This document shows positions 8,412 to 29,385 of a stretch of DNA of 64,000 bases, one piece after another; within the stretch, counting starts at the first letter, position 1; each line of letters opens with the position of its first letter. This DNA comes from Rhodovulum sp. 12E13 (GTDB taxonomy: Bacteria > Pseudomonadota > Alphaproteobacteria > Rhodobacterales > Rhodobacteraceae). The notes under the pieces are model-generated. The model saw nothing but the letters and a program-made list of their open reading frames with translations, was not told the DNA's origin and ran no database searches. A program made the translations under genes and the position numbers. Location: NCBI RefSeq assembly GCF_003340565.1, contig NZ_QPLK01000007.1, positions 1 to 64,000 on the forward strand. Direction: 5' to 3'.

Positions 8412-8642
8412 CGGGGCAAGCGGCGGTGCGCCCATGCCGGTAACGGCGCGGCCGCGCCGCGCCGGGCAGGGCCGGGGTGGACCGGGACGGGCAGGGCCGG
8501 AGCGAAACCGGCAGGGCCGGCCGCCACCGGAAGCAGGCAGCCGGGTCGATTGCACGGCCCCCGCGCGCGTCGGGGGCCGAAACCCGCAGCTCTCCCGCAC
8601 GCGGCACGGGCGACGCTGCCCGGGCGCTGCCGGCGGGGCCGC

Positions 8643-8915
8643 TCAGAGCTTGGGCGGCTCGCCCCGATCCGCCGGGCCGGGCGCGCTCCCGGCGCGGGCG
8701 CGGCGGCCGCCGCGGCGCCGCTTCACGCGGCCTGCGCGGTCGGGCAGGTCGGCCAGCACATCGCGCCGCTCGTCGGCGCTCATGACCGACCACATGCCGA
8801 TCTCCTGGATCGTGCGGAAGCAGCCGACACAGATCCGCTCGGTCGGATGGATCTGGCAGACCTTGATGCAGGGGCTCTCCGGCTCGTCGCGGCGCCACAC
8901 GTCGTCTCGGCCCAT
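8643..8915 (-). CDS. DUF1289 family protein (small Cys-rich protein)
   Basis: This is a 90-residue protein with the DUF1289 signature SPCIKVCQIHPTERICVGC: four cysteines spaced C-x3-C-x9-C-x2-C at about residues 16-33, followed by FRTIQEIGMW. The pattern suggests a metal or iron-sulfur site, but the family has no established function. The C-terminus (from about residue 62) is very basic (KRRRGGRRARAG). Its ATG lies one base after the ruvX stop (TGACATG), so it is almost certainly translated from the same message as ruvX. An in-frame upstream ATG inside ruvX is less likely. Confidence 0.8.
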   Translation of the reverse strand: MGRDDVWRRDEPESPCIKVCQIHPTERICVGCFRTIQEIGMWSVMSADERRDVLADLPDRAGRVKRRRGGRRARAGSAPGPADRGEPPKL

Positions 8916-8916
8916 G

Positions 8917-9426
8917 TCACTCCCTCTCTTCGACGCGCAGATGCGCCATGCGGTCGAGCGCACCCTGCAGGATGTAGGCGGCCGCGACCTTGTCGATGAC
9001 CTCGGCCCGGCGGGCGCGGCTGGCATCGGCCTCGATCAGCGCCCGCTCGGCGGCCACGGTCGACAGCCGCTCGTCCCAGAACGCCATCGGCAGATCGGTC
9101 AGCCGCTCGAGGTTGCGGGCGAAGGCGCGCGCGGACTGGGCGCGCGGCCCTTCCGTTCCGTCCATGTTGCGGGGCAGGCCGAGCACCACGCCGCCCACCT
9201 CGCGCCCGCCGAGCAGCTCCAGAAGCCGCGCGGCGTCGGCGCCGAACTTCGTCCGCTTCAGCGTCTCGACCGGCGTCGCCGAGCCGAGCAGCCGGTCGGA
9301 GAGCGCCACGCCGATCGTCTTCGTGCCGAGATCGAGCCCGGCGATCGGCCGGCCCGGCGGCACCGCGCCGGCGAAGTCCTCGATCGTCTCGCAGATCACG
9401 GCGCCCGCGGCCTTCCGTTCGGGCAC
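8917..9426 (-). CDS. ruvX: RuvX/YqgF Holliday-junction-resolvase-like protein
   Basis: RuvX is an RNase H-fold nuclease implicated in pre-16S rRNA 5'-end maturation and formerly proposed as a Holliday junction resolvase. The 169-residue protein shows GLDLGTKTIGVALSD with the first catalytic Asp, VVLGLPRNMDGTEGP, and FWDERLSTVAAERAL followed by a C-terminal EVIDKVAAAYILQ helix with the last acidic residue. Length and motif order match the family. It is the first gene of a two-gene unit with DUF1289. About 115 bases separate it from ccmI upstream. Confidence 0.93.
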   Translation of the reverse strand: MPERKAAGAVICETIEDFAGAVPPGRPIAGLDLGTKTIGVALSDRLLGSATPVETLKRTKFGADAARLLELLGGREVGGVVLGLPRNMDGTEGPRAQSARAFARNLERLTDLPMAFWDERLSTVAAERALIEADASRARRAEVIDKVAAAYILQGALDRMAHLRVEERE

Positions 9427-9541
9427 GGCACCGCTGCGCGCCGAAGGGCGCCGCCCCGTGCCGCGCCGTCGCCCGCCTCCGTCCGGTCGGGATATGCCGG
9501 CACGACCATGCCGCCCTCAGCCATGCCGGGCACCGCGCGCC

Positions 9542-10771
9542 TCATTGCGCCACGCCTGCGTCGCGGGCAGCGCGCAGAATGGGCAGGCGCGCGACCTCGT
9601 CTTCGAAGACCTGCTGCGCCTCTGCCCAGATCGCGGCCGCCTGCTCGCGCCGGCCGAGCACGCCATAGGCGCGGATCAGGCGCGCCCAGTCCTCGGGGGG
9701 GCCGCCGGTGGTGGCCAGCCGCTCCGACAGGCCCGAGACCATGCCCTCGATCATCTGCATCCGCTCGGCCGGGCTCATGCCCTCGGCCGCTTCCACGTCG
9801 GAGGGGGCGGGGCCTCGGGGCGCGGTGCCTTCGGGGGCGGGCGGCAGCCGATAGTCGATGCCGGCCCGCGCGGCGGCCTGCTCGATCTGCGCGCGGATCG
9901 GGCCGATCCACGGGGCGTCGGCCGGCCCCTCGCGCAGCTGTGCCTGCCAGATGCGGAAGGCGAGGTCGGGCCGGCCGGTCTGCAGCTGCATGGCGCCCAT
10001 GTAGTAGCGCGCCGTGCCGTTGCCGGGGTCGCGGGCGAGCGCCTCCTCGAAGGCGCGTTCGGCCTCGGGCGAGACGTAGCCGCCCGCCGCCAGCACCATG
10101 AGATCGCCGTAATCGGCCCAGTCCCGGGCGGTGGCGGCCGGCCCGAGGATCTCGATCACCCGCTTCTGCGCGGCATGGGCGGCGGCGAAATTGCCGAGGC
10201 CCGCCTCGTTGCGCGCAAGCAGGCGATGGCCGTCGAGGTCCGAGGGGCGCTCGGCCACCGTCGCGCGCAGCCGGTCCATCAGCTCGAGAAAATCGGCCGA
10301 AGCGGAGGGATCGGGCGCGGAAGGCAGGCTTGCCTCGGCCTGCGCCTGCGTCGGGCGGGTCGCGCGGCGCTCGGCGGCGTCGTCGAGACGGGCCACCAGC
10401 GGCATGTCGGGGTAGGCGGGCGCGCCGATTACGGTGTAGAGCCAGAGGCTGCCGCCGAGCACCGCCACGCCCGACAGGGCGGCGGTGACGAGGGTCGCGG
10501 CCTTCGGTGCGCGGCCCGTCGGCCCGGTCTCGGCAGAGGCACGGTCGGCCTCGAGGATGCGCCGCTTGATCTCGGTGCGCAGGCGCTCGGCCTCCTCCTC
10601 GCCGACAAGCCCGCGCGCGAGATCCTTGTCCACCGCGGCAAGCTGGTCGCGGTAGATCCGGATGTCGAAGCGCTCCATCTCGGCCTCGGCATCCTGCGCG
10701 CGGAGCAGGGCGAGCGCGATCAGCCCCGTCACGGCGAGCGCCAGCCCCGCGGCCACGATCCAGAACAGCAT
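9542..10771 (-). CDS. ccmI: CcmI, cytochrome c biogenesis apocytochrome chaperone
   Basis: CcmI holds apocytochrome c at the periplasmic face of the inner membrane for haem ligation by CcmF/H. The 409-residue protein begins with a membrane segment (MLFWIVAAGLALAVTGLIAL). A cytoplasmic loop rich in charged residues follows (RIYRDQLAAVDKDLARGLVGEEEAERLRTEI split over residues 40-70, typical of CcmI). A second membrane segment (about 92-115) comes next, then a long periplasmic tetratricopeptide region. TPR-like helices include FAAAHAAQKRVIEIL, AERAFEEALARDPGNGTARYYMGAMQL and EDWARLIRAYGVLGR. This gene stands alone, not in a ccm operon, as is common in Rhodobacterales. It diverges from soxB. Confidence 0.88.
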   Translation of the reverse strand: MLFWIVAAGLALAVTGLIALALLRAQDAEAEMERFDIRIYRDQLAAVDKDLARGLVGEEEAERLRTEIKRRILEADRASAETGPTGRAPKAATLVTAALSGVAVLGGSLWLYTVIGAPAYPDMPLVARLDDAAERRATRPTQAQAEASLPSAPDPSASADFLELMDRLRATVAERPSDLDGHRLLARNEAGLGNFAAAHAAQKRVIEILGPAATARDWADYGDLMVLAAGGYVSPEAERAFEEALARDPGNGTARYYMGAMQLQTGRPDLAFRIWQAQLREGPADAPWIGPIRAQIEQAAARAGIDYRLPPAPEGTAPRGPAPSDVEAAEGMSPAERMQMIEGMVSGLSERLATTGGPPEDWARLIRAYGVLGRREQAAAIWAEAQQVFEDEVARLPILRAARDAGVAQ

Positions 10772-25293: not shown

Positions 25294-26010
25294 CCGTTCC
25301 GGCCGCGTCGCGCGTGGGGCCCGGTCACGCCCGTGACCGTCGGAGCCGGGGAGCGCCAAGGACCGGCACGGGGAAGAGCTGCCGCGCCGTGTCGGGCCGG
25401 ATGAGGCGCTGCACGGCGCTCCGCCGCGAGATGCCTGCCCCGGACGCTCTCGCGGCGGCGCGGCGCTCTCGACCACCGGGGCGGGGCGGCGGCTCGGCCT
25501 GCCCGGGATCGGTCGCGTTGACCGCACGGCCCGGGCCGTGCGCCTTTTGCGGTCGCACCGAGGCGCGCCATGTCCGGGGGAGCGCCCTCCCGGGGGATCG
25601 ACCCCCGGTCGGCCGCCCACTCCCGTGTCTCGCGGTGCCCGCGTCGGGCCTATCGGGCCGTACGTTCGGGCGGGTGCCCGGGCGGGTGCCCTGGCTTGTG
25701 CCGGCGCATCCCGGCGATACCCGGGGAGCGAGGGCCGCGAGAACGGAAAACTGCCGGGTCGGTTAGCGAAGCGTCAAGCGCCGGCGGTGCGCATGCGAAT
25801 GCCTTTCAGGTCAACCCCTTGGCGCGGCGCCGACGCTGCCGTGATCGCCGGGGCATGGGGCTGTACGCGGCGCATCGGCCTGCGTTCGCCCGGTTCGCCG
25901 GTGATCCGCCGGCGCCCGTTTACCGCCCGTTCAAGGCTGCGGCCCTATGCCCTCACCGATCCGGGCGCGCCTCTGGCGCCCCCGACAGGCCGAAAGGAGT
26001 GAAGCGGGCA
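25294..26010. other. Long non-coding leader region of the PYP operon
   Basis: I see no convincing gene in these 717 bases. Open frames on both strands are Arg/Pro/Gly-rich shadows without ribosome sites. A 12-bp direct repeat GGGCGGGTGCCC stands at 25668 and 25680. The stretch 25740-25830 is less GC-rich than its surroundings (GAACGGAAAACTG; GCATGCGAATGCC) and is the likeliest place for the operon promoter. No operator was recognised. Confidence 0.4.
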
Positions 26011-26448
26011 ATGGAGATCATCGGAAAACTGACCGAGGACAACGGTCGCATCGAGTTCCGGTGCGAGCGGTCGGGCCTCGTGGTCCGGGGCGACTACCCC
26101 GAATGGGTGCTCGCCGCCGCGGCCGAGATGCTGGCCGCGGTCGCCGAGAAGGAAATCGAGGGCAGGATCGAGGAGCTGTCGGCCCTCGTCGAGTTCGGCG
26201 AGGCCACCGAGACTGCCGTCGACGGCGCCAAGTGGGAGCACAAGAGCCGCTTCGAGATCGTGCCGCAATGCACCGTCACAATGGGCTCGACCGAGTATCG
26301 CTGGGTCGCCCCCGATGCCGAGGCCGTCCGCATCGGCGAGTTCGACGGCCACCCCGTGAAGCGGGTCCACAACATGGCGCTGACCCGCAACGACAGCTTC
26401 CTCGCCAACGAGCCGGGAGTCGGCCCGGGCTCGGGCAAGCCGTCCTGA
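26011..26448 (+). CDS. PYP-operon protein of unknown function, 145 residues
   Basis: I do not recognise this family. The product is a small, acidic, apparently soluble protein without signal peptide or membrane segment. It starts MEIIGKLTEDNGRIEFRCER, has an alanine-rich helix (WVLAAAAEMLAAVAEKEIEGR, about residues 34-55) and a beta-rich second half (KSRFEIVPQCTVTMGSTEYR, GEFDGHPVKRVHNMALTRND). The ATG at 26011 has AGGAG 11 bases upstream, and longer in-frame starts have no support. The stop is 47 bases before the photoactive yellow protein gene on the same strand, so it is probably the first gene of that operon. A role as partner, modulator or chromophore-loading factor is inference from position only. 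Confidence 0.7.
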   Translation: MEIIGKLTEDNGRIEFRCERSGLVVRGDYPEWVLAAAAEMLAAVAEKEIEGRIEELSALVEFGEATETAVDGAKWEHKSRFEIVPQCTVTMGSTEYRWVAPDAEAVRIGEFDGHPVKRVHNMALTRNDSFLANEPGVGPGSGKPS

Positions 26449-26495
26449 CAGGCGCCCCTCTCGCCACAGACCCGATCAGCAAAGGATCACGACCC

Positions 26496-26870
26496 ATGGA
26501 AATCATCCCCTTCGGCAGCCAGGATGTCGACAACATCCTCGCGCGCGAGCCCCAGCGCGTGGAAAAGCTCGCCTTCGGCGCCGTCCTGCTCGACCGCAAC
26601 GGCAAGGTCGTCAAGTACAACCAGGCCGAGGGCCTGATCGCCGGGCGCGACCCCTCCGAGGTCGTGGGCAAGGACTTCTTCAACGAGATCGCGCCCTGCG
26701 CCAAGGGCAAGCGCTTTCACGGCGAGTTCCTCAAGTTCCACCAGACCGGGCAGGTCAACGTCATGTTCGACTACAAGTTCGACTACAAGGGCGCCAACGT
26801 GGGCGTGAAGATCCACCTCAAGTCGCAGCCCGACGGCCAGCATTGCTGGATGTTCGTCAAGCGCGCCTGA
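26496..26870 (+). CDS. pyp: Photoactive yellow protein (blue-light receptor)
   Basis: PYP is a small cytosolic PAS-domain photoreceptor carrying 4-hydroxycinnamoyl (p-coumaroyl) thioester-linked to a cysteine. The 124-residue length is nearly identical to the Halorhodospira prototype (125). The chromophore Cys is in IAPCAKG (Cys68), and the pocket residues Tyr41 and Glu45 (KYNQAEG) and Arg51 (GRDP) are all present. The C-terminal half (VNVMFDYKFDYKGANVGVKI, ending FVKRA) is of the Rhodobacter type. Relative to the prototype, Thr50 is Ala49 and Met100 is Gly99, positions that affect colour and recovery rate. AAAGGA precedes the ATG. The dedicated ligase gene downstream supports a functional photoreceptor. 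Its output partner is unknown. Confidence 0.97.
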   Translation: MEIIPFGSQDVDNILAREPQRVEKLAFGAVLLDRNGKVVKYNQAEGLIAGRDPSEVVGKDFFNEIAPCAKGKRFHGEFLKFHQTGQVNVMFDYKFDYKGANVGVKIHLKSQPDGQHCWMFVKRA

Positions 26871-26938
26871 CCCCTTGTCGGGCGCCTGGCCGAGGGGGTT
26901 GCCCCGCGGCGCGGCGCCCCCCGATCCGGAGCATTCCC

Positions 26939-27439
26939 ATGACCTACATGACCGACGCCCCCACGGCCGAGCACCCCGTGCCGATGTCGGGCCAGGGCCA
27001 CGGCTACGACGCGCCCGCCGGACTCTCGTCGGGCCAGTACCGCCTGCGCCGCTTCGGCGGCCGGCCGATCGTGTTCCAGGGCACCGAGCTCGCCATGGCG
27101 ATGAGTTTCACGCCGGGGCTGCCCTACTGGTTCGAGATCAACCTGTTTCGCGCCAACGACGGCTCTTGCCCGGTCTGCGTCAAGAAGTTCTTCTCGTCCA
27201 GCGAGGAAAAGGACTTCGCCCGCGCCTGGGTCGCGCCCTCGATCGAAGCCGCGCTCGATTCGATCGAGACCTTCGATCCCGCCGAGGACGTGCCCGTGCG
27301 CGTGAGCCTTTCGGCCGGCTCGATGACGCCAGCCGAGATGGAGGCCGCCGCGATGGACCTGCAGGCGCAGGTGACCAACGTCCGGACCCATTACGCCAGC
27401 CTCGTCGGCGAGTTCCTGCACCAGCTCGACGCCGCCTGA
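26939..27439 (+). CDS. PYP-operon protein of unknown function, 166 residues, with CPVC motif
   Basis: I do not recognise this family. The product is soluble, without signal peptide. The first 30 residues look flexible (TDAPTAEHPVPMSGQGHGYD). A compact central part follows: YRLRRFGGRPIVFQGTELAM, LPYWFEINLFRANDGSCPVC with a CxxC pair at residues 77-80, and KKFFSSSEEKDFARAWV. The C-terminal third is helical (TPAEMEAAAMDLQAQVTNVR). The CxxC might bind a metal or be redox active. GGAG stands seven bases before the ATG. It starts 68 bases after pyp, and its stop overlaps the start of the coumarate ligase gene (TGATG), so co-expression with the chromophore pathway is very likely. The function is unknown. 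Confidence 0.75.
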   Translation: MTYMTDAPTAEHPVPMSGQGHGYDAPAGLSSGQYRLRRFGGRPIVFQGTELAMAMSFTPGLPYWFEINLFRANDGSCPVCVKKFFSSSEEKDFARAWVAPSIEAALDSIETFDPAEDVPVRVSLSAGSMTPAEMEAAAMDLQAQVTNVRTHYASLVGEFLHQLDAA

Positions 27440-28923
27440 TGCGGGCTGCTTCCGTGACCGGCCCGGCACGCGCTTCGGCTGCGGAGTCGCCCTCCGCCCC
27501 TACGGCCCTCGGCGGGGTGGAGGCGCCCCGGCAGGCCTCTCTCGAGCCGGACATGTCCGGGCATCGGGGGGCGACCGGCGGCGACGCCCCGCCGGCGCTC
27601 CCGCTCGATGGCGTGTCGCTTGCCCGGATCTGTCGCGGCGCCCTCCGCGAGCGTCTGTCGCGAGGCCGCGGAGTGCCGGCGCCGCCGGTTCCCGACGACC
27701 TGCCGCTCGTCGACCGGCCCGGTGCCGCCGGACACGACGATGCCGCGCGCGACGGCGGGTCGGCATCTGGCGCCCCGCCCGGGCAAGCCTGCCTCGGCCT
27801 GGACAGTCTCGAGCTCTTGGAGGCGGTCGCCGATCTTGACCGGCGCTTCGCCCTGTCGCGCACGGGGATCGAGGATCACCTGCTGCTCTGCCCGACCCTT
27901 GCCGAGTGGGGGGCGCTCATCGCCGAGCACCTGCGGCGCTGCGGCCCGGATCTGCCGGTCACCTTCATGACGTCCGGCTCGCAGGGCGCCCCCCGGGCGG
28001 TCGCCCATCCCGCCTCGACACTGCTCGCCGAGGCCGACGCTCTTATCGAGGTGCTCGCCCCCGGCGGGACGGGCGGGCGCGTTCCAGACGCGCCCGCGGC
28101 CAGCATCGGGCCATCCACGCCCGGTCGCTCGTCGGAAGGGGCCGCCGCGTCGGAGGCGCCCGGCCGCGTCCTCGTGCTTGTCCCCTGTCACCACATCTTC
28201 GGCTTTCTCTTCGGCGCGCTGGTTCCGGCCCGTGCGGGCTGGCCCGTGATCGACCTTGCCGGCCGCGCCCCGGGGACGCTCGCCCGCACCGTCCGGCCGG
28301 GCGACCTGATCGTGGCGACCCCCTACCTGCTCTCCCTCGCTCTCCGCGCGGGGGCGCCCATTCCGGCCGGGTGCTCTGCCGTGGTCTCGGGCGCGGCGGC
28401 GGCGGCCGATGTCTGGGCCGATAGCGCCCGCGCGGGGCTCGGCCTGACCGAGATTTACGGCGCGACCGAGACAGGCGGCATCGGCTGGCGCAGGGCGCCG
28501 GATCATCCGTTCGACCTGCTGCCGCATCTGTCACGCGCCGGGAACGGCGTCGCCGGCCCTTGCGGCACGCCGCTGTCGCTGCAGGACAGTCTGGCATGGC
28601 GCGGCCCCCGCAGCTTTGACTTGCTCGGCCGGGTCGATCGTGTCGTGCAGGTAGCCGGTGTCAATGTCTCGCCGGACGCGGTCGCCCGCCACCTCGCCGC
28701 ACGGGAGGAGGTCTGCGAGGCCGCGGTGCGCCTCGACCCTGTGTCGGGCCGCCTCAAGGCGTTCATCGTGCCGACCGATCCCGCATTGTGCGCCACGCCG
28801 GGCGCGATCGAGCCGCAACTGCGTGCCGCCTGTGCTGACCTGCCCGCCCCGGCGCGACCGCAGCGCTTCGACCTCGGCACGGCCCTGCCGACCGGCCCGT
28901 CGGGCAAGCCGACCGACTGGTGA
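27439..28923 (+). CDS. pcl: 4-coumarate:CoA ligase of the PYP-activation family
   Basis: The enzyme should activate p-coumarate to the CoA thioester used to load the PYP cysteine. The 494-residue product has adenylate-forming motifs: a P-loop FMTSGSQGAPR at 177-186 (the usual Thr-Gly-x-Pro-Lys is Gln-Gly-Ala-Pro-Arg), His-His at 251-252, YGATETGG at 340-347, GRVDRVVQVAGVNV at 397-410 and a terminal SGK with Lys490. An N-terminal part with LGLDSLELLEAV (119-130) resembles a carrier-protein serine motif, as in known PYP ligases. Residues 1-55 and 208-242 are low-complexity additions that make it longer than the roughly 390 residues I recall for the family. The ATG overlaps the preceding stop. 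Confidence 0.85.
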   Translation: MRAASVTGPARASAAESPSAPTALGGVEAPRQASLEPDMSGHRGATGGDAPPALPLDGVSLARICRGALRERLSRGRGVPAPPVPDDLPLVDRPGAAGHDDAARDGGSASGAPPGQACLGLDSLELLEAVADLDRRFALSRTGIEDHLLLCPTLAEWGALIAEHLRRCGPDLPVTFMTSGSQGAPRAVAHPASTLLAEADALIEVLAPGGTGGRVPDAPAASIGPSTPGRSSEGAAASEAPGRVLVLVPCHHIFGFLFGALVPARAGWPVIDLAGRAPGTLARTVRPGDLIVATPYLLSLALRAGAPIPAGCSAVVSGAAAAADVWADSARAGLGLTEIYGATETGGIGWRRAPDHPFDLLPHLSRAGNGVAGPCGTPLSLQDSLAWRGPRSFDLLGRVDRVVQVAGVNVSPDAVARHLAAREEVCEAAVRLDPVSGRLKAFIVPTDPALCATPGAIEPQLRAACADLPAPARPQRFDLGTALPTGPSGKPTDW

Positions 28924-29132: not shown

Positions 29133-29209
29133 GCGGTTGTAGCTCAGTTGGTTAGAGTACCGGCCTGTCACGCCGGGGGTCGCGGGTTCGAGCCCCGTCA
29201 ACCGCGCCA
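29133..29209 (+). tRNA. tRNA-Asp (GTC), copy 1
   Basis: A 77-base tRNA with a 7-bp acceptor stem (GCGGTTG/CAACCGC), D-arm TAGCTCAGTTGGTTAGA, anticodon loop CTGTCAC with anticodon GTC, T-arm GGTTCGAGCCC and an encoded CCA end. It is identical to the second copy 99 bases downstream. Confidence 0.97.
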
Positions 29210-29308: not shown

Positions 29309-29385
29309 GCGGTTGTAGCTCAGTTGGTTAGAGTACCGGCCTGTCACGCCGGGGGTCGCGGGTTCGAGCCCCGTCAACCGCGCCA
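29309..29385 (+). tRNA. tRNA-Asp (GTC), copy 2
   Basis: Identical over all 77 bases to the gene at 29133-29209, including the encoded CCA. The short spacer between them and the common strand suggest one transcript. The flanking sequences differ, so only the tRNA itself is conserved. Confidence 0.97.

Follow-up and report, generated by a model that had tools for sequence, protein, structure and literature searches.

In the pyp-pcl-tal operon of H. halophila, the gene for photoactive yellow protein (PYP) is followed on the same strand by that of its ligase (PMC12826048, in part). In its main text and operon table, this latest survey, published in 2025, covers 113 predicted pyp operons with pCL in 42 and TAL in 7, names neither gas vesicles nor small proteins like those considered below, and calls the PYP signal chain an important knowledge gap. 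That pyp is close to gas-vesicle (gvp) genes in both R. capsulatus and a Loktanella has been stated previously (PMC3646047, citing Kyndt et al. 2004), and Table 1 of PMC6273459 gives gas vesicles (cell buoyancy) as a PYP function for a row group that includes 'Phodobacter' (sic). In R. capsulatus, the gas-vesicle genes are grouped with motility genes and respond to CtrA, FnrL and RegA; during photosynthetic growth they are the most repressed of the motility genes (parts of PMC7232146, PMC4634722, PMC5359404 and PMC5643017).

The stretch of DNA analysed here (the window) comprises 64,000 nucleotides of Rhodovulum sp. 12E13. It contains a pyp locus with the following features:

25993-25999, + strand: AAAGGAG, likely ribosome-binding site of orf1; the sequence supports the ATG at 26011
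26011-26448, + strand: orf1, 145 aa, no family in Pfam or NCBIfam; conserved partner of the gas-vesicle type of PYP
26481-26486, + strand: AAAGGA, likely ribosome-binding site of pyp, from sequence
26496-26870, + strand: pyp, photoactive yellow protein, 124 aa, Rhodobacter type
26871-26938, + strand: pyp-orf3 gap of 68 bases, the site of orf2 in seven Rhodobacterales relatives
26939-27439, + strand: orf3, 166 aa, not assignable to a known family; paralogous to orf2 and to further genes of gas-vesicle islands
27439-28923, + strand: pcl, PYP-type 4-coumarate:CoA ligase-like, 494 aa, with an N-terminal carrier-like G-x-DSL segment

The preliminary description had read 26011-28923 as four genes in the order orf1-pyp-orf3-pcl on one strand, separated by gaps of 47 bases (orf1-pyp) and 68 bases (pyp-orf3), with the orf3 stop and the pcl start sharing one base in TGATG (27437-27441). 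All of this was confirmed. The proposal that the receptor, its ligase and two partner proteins are made jointly is supported as well, as it fits both the layout and the gene order conserved in relatives. The start of orf3 is preceded by a Shine-Dalgarno-like GGAG only. No same-strand promoters or terminators were predicted between the four genes, which is weak evidence, and the RNA folds of the gaps were not more stable than those of shuffled sequences. With dN/dS values against the near twin HLUCCA09 (L001) of 0.09 for orf1, 0 for pyp, 0.018 for orf3 and 0.41 for pcl, the reading frames behave as real genes, and orf1, pyp and orf3 are under purifying selection. From their translations, the genes 5' of the operon read as NAD(P) transhydrogenase subunits. 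On the 3' side, two tandem tRNA-Asp genes (29133-29209 and 29309-29385) begin about 210 bases past the end of pcl and are a possible insertion hot spot.

The window PYP scored 185.4 bits against TIGR02373, above the curated cut-off of 143.05; matches under about 60 bits were treated as ordinary PAS domains. Its Tyr41, Glu45, Arg51 and Cys68, described earlier as intact, indeed align with Tyr42, Glu46, Arg52 and Cys69 of the H. halophila protein. In H. halophila numbering, Thr50 is replaced by Ala and Met100 by Gly, and the same is true of R. capsulatus. Table 1 of PMC12826048 lists the R. capsulatus and R. sphaeroides PYPs with 435/375 nm and 1 ms, and 446/360 nm and 2 ms, respectively. By analogy with these two proteins, the window PYP is expected to absorb in two forms and to have a fast photocycle.

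The best family of pcl was TIGR02372, with a score of 301.4 bits that falls short of the curated cut-off of 334.7. The ligases of L001 (308.5), L002 (328.2) and L111 (266.0) are below the cut-off too, and that of L006 scored 589.3. In an alignment of nine ligases, pcl retains the adenylation motifs TSGSxG, YGATETGG and GR-D and the C-terminal GK lysine; we treat it as a likely functional equivalent of TIGR02372 enzymes without filing it in that family. At about residues 118-160, pcl has a carrier-protein-like stretch with D-S-L, which is also found in L002-L008, L102-L104 and L111 and was present in every PYP-type ligase examined, including those outside the window's PYP clade. Matches of this stretch to PF00550 were below the cut-off. 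If the D-S-L serine carries phosphopantetheine, the chromophore might travel via a carrier arm instead of free CoA.

A PYP scan of one genome per species gave ten loci; as it used short exact peptide patterns, it is biased to near relatives. The order orf1-pyp-(...)-orf3-pcl was found in all eight contigs with a PYP of at least 72% identity (L001-L008) and also in G144 and G083. Seven Rhodobacterales relatives (L002-L006, G144 and G083) have a further gene, orf2, of about 180-217 aa between pyp and orf3, which is absent from that position in the window and in HLUCCA09, whose PYP is identical. At this position, the loci of Methylobacterium and Rhodoblastus contain about 1.1 kb in which orf2 was not recognised. 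Hence, the four-gene compactness stressed in the preliminary description is true of the window, but because seven relatives retain orf2 it looks derived. The comparison with R. capsulatus SP108 (L006) illustrates this. Both loci have orf1, pyp, orf3 and pcl, whereas SP108 adds orf2 (orf1-pyp-orf2-orf3-pcl) and has its operon near gvpA, gvpO and gvpF. The window operon lacks orf2 and lies about 155 kb from the gvp island, and no aromatic ammonia-lyase was found in the genome, unlike at the R. capsulatus locus. Compared to the H. halophila operon, the window has orf1 and orf3 in addition and no TAL gene.

The gas-vesicle context had been missed in the preliminary description. In the window's genome (G000), three GvpA genes are located on the same contig (C95:184735-194728), in an island that also holds gvpF, gvpO, gvpN and AAA genes. 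Here pyp is neither inside nor beside the gvp island, the nearest GvpA being about 158 kb away. Two genes related to orf3 are in the island, an orf2 copy at about C95:181442-182194 and a second orf3-like gene at about C95:180744-181226. Thus, the window operon is a piece separated from an island that the other relatives have in one stretch. We are highly confident that it belongs to a conserved PYP/gas-vesicle module, of whose PYP part it is a shortened, detached copy. Two further genes of these islands deserve mention. One, at the island of G000 (L040 7004-9805; C95:199004-201805), encodes a soluble-looking protein of 933 aa that combines an MCP signalling domain with four or more PAS domains, and its relatives occur in other gas-vesicle islands. 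The other is a conserved gene whose product has a basic N-terminus and a helix-hairpin-helix-like C-terminus (L002 6013-6726, L006 5026-6066, L111 14704-15846 and others), for which Pfam gave no name above cut-off.

In hhalign comparisons, orf3 proved to share homology with orf2 (P 1.2e-8), with a gene that relatives have upstream of orf1 (P 2e-11) and with the second orf3-like copy in the window's genome (P 1e-13). In G083, orf2 and orf3 lie within a single 378-codon open frame. The same method showed orf1 and orf3 to be unrelated to each other. Pfam and NCBIfam searches with orf1 and orf3 yielded no family, profile searches for their structural relatives gave no useful match, and neither was found in the plasmid collection. 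Their sequence matches in the PDB, antibody chains in the case of orf1 and a few chains in that of orf3, are weak and look like chance. The AlphaFold2 model of orf1 was poor (pLDDT 63.6). That of orf3 was good (pLDDT 82.0) and shows a sheet of five strands with two helices, one of them short and the other long and C-terminal. Fold searches gave a confident match for neither orf1 nor orf3; for orf3, no PDB chain reached an E value of 0.001 or lower. The highest VIA-align rows, PARP WGR and Pur-alpha (Z up to 5.8), are within the chance range, and a nucleic-acid-binding role for the modelled orf3 is only a thought. Residues 74-80 of orf3 (DGSCPVC) contain a CxxC pair that is shared with HLUCCA09 and absent from the other orf3 proteins.

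Among 296 genomes of the family, a PYP above the TIGR02373 cut-off was found in four (G000, G253, G083 and G144), two of which are of one genus, so that by genus there are three independent cases. It had been suggested earlier that homologues of the two small genes occurring widely without pyp would speak against an association. For orf3 this is not what we found: it is present in exactly the four PYP genomes, and a profile scan agrees. The same is nearly true of orf1, which is present in the four PYP genomes and in three others, one with a stub (G140) and two with divergent copies (G008 and G162), the latter two having no PYP. The copy of G162 is on a 4.2-kb contig. In G140, the 62-residue stub is next to the upstream paralogue, the helix-hairpin-helix gene and a PAS-MCP gene, a locus that reads as a deletion scar. 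Clear GvpA (three matches) is confined to the four PYP genomes and G051, and weak single matches are present in G217, G220 and G168. Fisher tests over the 296 genomes gave 3e-9 for orf3 and 1.6e-8 for gas vesicles, values that ignore relatedness. Because G051 has gvp genes without PYP, orf1 or orf3, gas vesicles do not require them. Its gas-vesicle cluster (L082; C5:660001-680000) includes a TAL-like lyase gene at about 8571-10151, and no PYP, pcl, orf1 or orf3 was found in that stretch; it may be a remnant of a PYP system that has been lost.

In all 11 members of the window's PYP clade (support 100/99), orf1, orf3 and pcl are present together with gas-vesicle genes. In one search, both orf3 and GvpA were present in seven genomes of this clade, whereas five genomes with other PYPs (G303, G465, G564, G441 and G586) had neither. 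A profile of the orf2/orf3 family (A3), run blind to PYP in 347 alphaproteobacterial genomes, gave one clear match beyond the window's genome, in G919 (E 7.8e-9). Partial matches in G698 and G807 (E about 5e-4 and 9e-4) are marginal and were judged to be chance. The order in G919 is orf3-family gene, an unassigned 514-aa gene product, orf1, pyp, pcl, gvpA, helix-hairpin-helix gene, gvpN, gvpO, gvpA and gvpF. Its PYP is 43% identical and is placed as sister to the 11-member clade (98/97) in a tree that is unrooted and has long branches.

We also looked for the source of the chromophore. A search for aromatic ammonia-lyases (PF00221: HAL, PAL and TAL) gave no matches in G000 (100% complete) and G253 (92%), and matches in the 13 other genomes of the same search. 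Most clade members have a match of about 430-515 bits on the pyp contig, which we take to be a TAL-type enzyme. In G144 and G301, the only match is at about 600 bits and is presumably a histidine ammonia-lyase. Because no aromatic ammonia-lyase was found in G000, the p-coumarate of the window's organism probably comes from outside; import from the environment has been suggested for some PYP bacteria (PMC12826048, in part).

The best overall explanation of these findings, to which we assign a probability of roughly 0.55, is that the locus is the light-sensor operon of a PYP/gas-vesicle module that would place buoyancy under the control of light. Within it, orf1 and orf3 are probably dedicated functional partners of PYP. 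Because orf1, orf3 and PYP co-occur with gvp genes, control of gas vesicles is the most likely output, which we would put at slightly under even odds from gene linkage. More tentatively, orf1 and the orf2/orf3 family may form the output apparatus of a single-domain PYP. The ligase would activate p-coumarate, taken up from outside, for attachment to Cys68, and light would alter PYP. Then, orf1, orf3 or both would bind the lit receptor and relay its signal to the synthesis and assembly of gas vesicles, perhaps by way of the orf2/orf3 paralogues of the gvp island, so that light adjusts buoyancy.

A different role for orf1 and orf3 would be that of maturation factors, which would help PYP to receive or retain its coumaroyl chromophore and carry no signal. 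The base shared by orf3 and pcl fits with this, and so do the position of orf1 5' of pyp in all clade members and the divergent orf1 of G008, which lies between an aromatic lyase gene and a pcl-like gene in the absence of pyp. However, in Caballeronia and Indioceanicola the PYP operon includes pyp and a ligase but neither orf1 nor orf3; in H. halophila, the two proteins described as necessary for chromophore synthesis and activation are TAL and pCL (PMC12826048, in part); and the orf3 paralogues in gas-vesicle islands would be left unexplained. Hence, we regard such a role as unlikely. Those paralogues, retained at both sites in the window's genome, also speak against orf1 and orf3 being passengers kept by linkage alone. 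The intact operon at a separate site shows that linkage to gvp can be broken, but the two genes stayed beside pyp after this separation and are under purifying selection, which makes the passenger explanation very improbable.

As several islands carry a PAS-MCP gene, taxis is a conceivable output as well. The island's soluble PAS-MCP would then receive the signal of PYP, with the gas vesicles as mere neighbours. Besides the multi-PAS MCP gene at the island of G000, there are MCP-signalling relatives in L003, L004, L006 and L007 and a CheW gene adjoining the scar in G140, and both PYP-MCP fusions and phototaxis are known (parts of PMC12826048 and PMC9664959). On the other hand, an MCP gene was not seen in the stretches examined from L002, L005, L008 and G919, whereas gvp genes are present in all genomes of the clade. 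Phototaxis as the output is quite unlikely on this evidence, and gas-vesicle control is the output that we prefer.

The link between PYP and gas vesicles has been published. The orf1 and orf2/orf3 families are apparently undescribed: our search of the open-access literature gave no description of them, which is no proof of absence. As two families of small proteins that accompany one PYP clade and gas vesicles in the genomes surveyed, they are prime candidates for the partners of PYP and straightforward to study by binding and deletion, for instance in R. capsulatus, which carries the fuller module. Furthermore, a PYP and its ligase without a detectable aromatic ammonia-lyase suggest light sensing that relies on an external chromophore precursor. 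If orf1 and the orf2/orf3 family do form an output apparatus of PYP, it would be a blue-light buoyancy switch.
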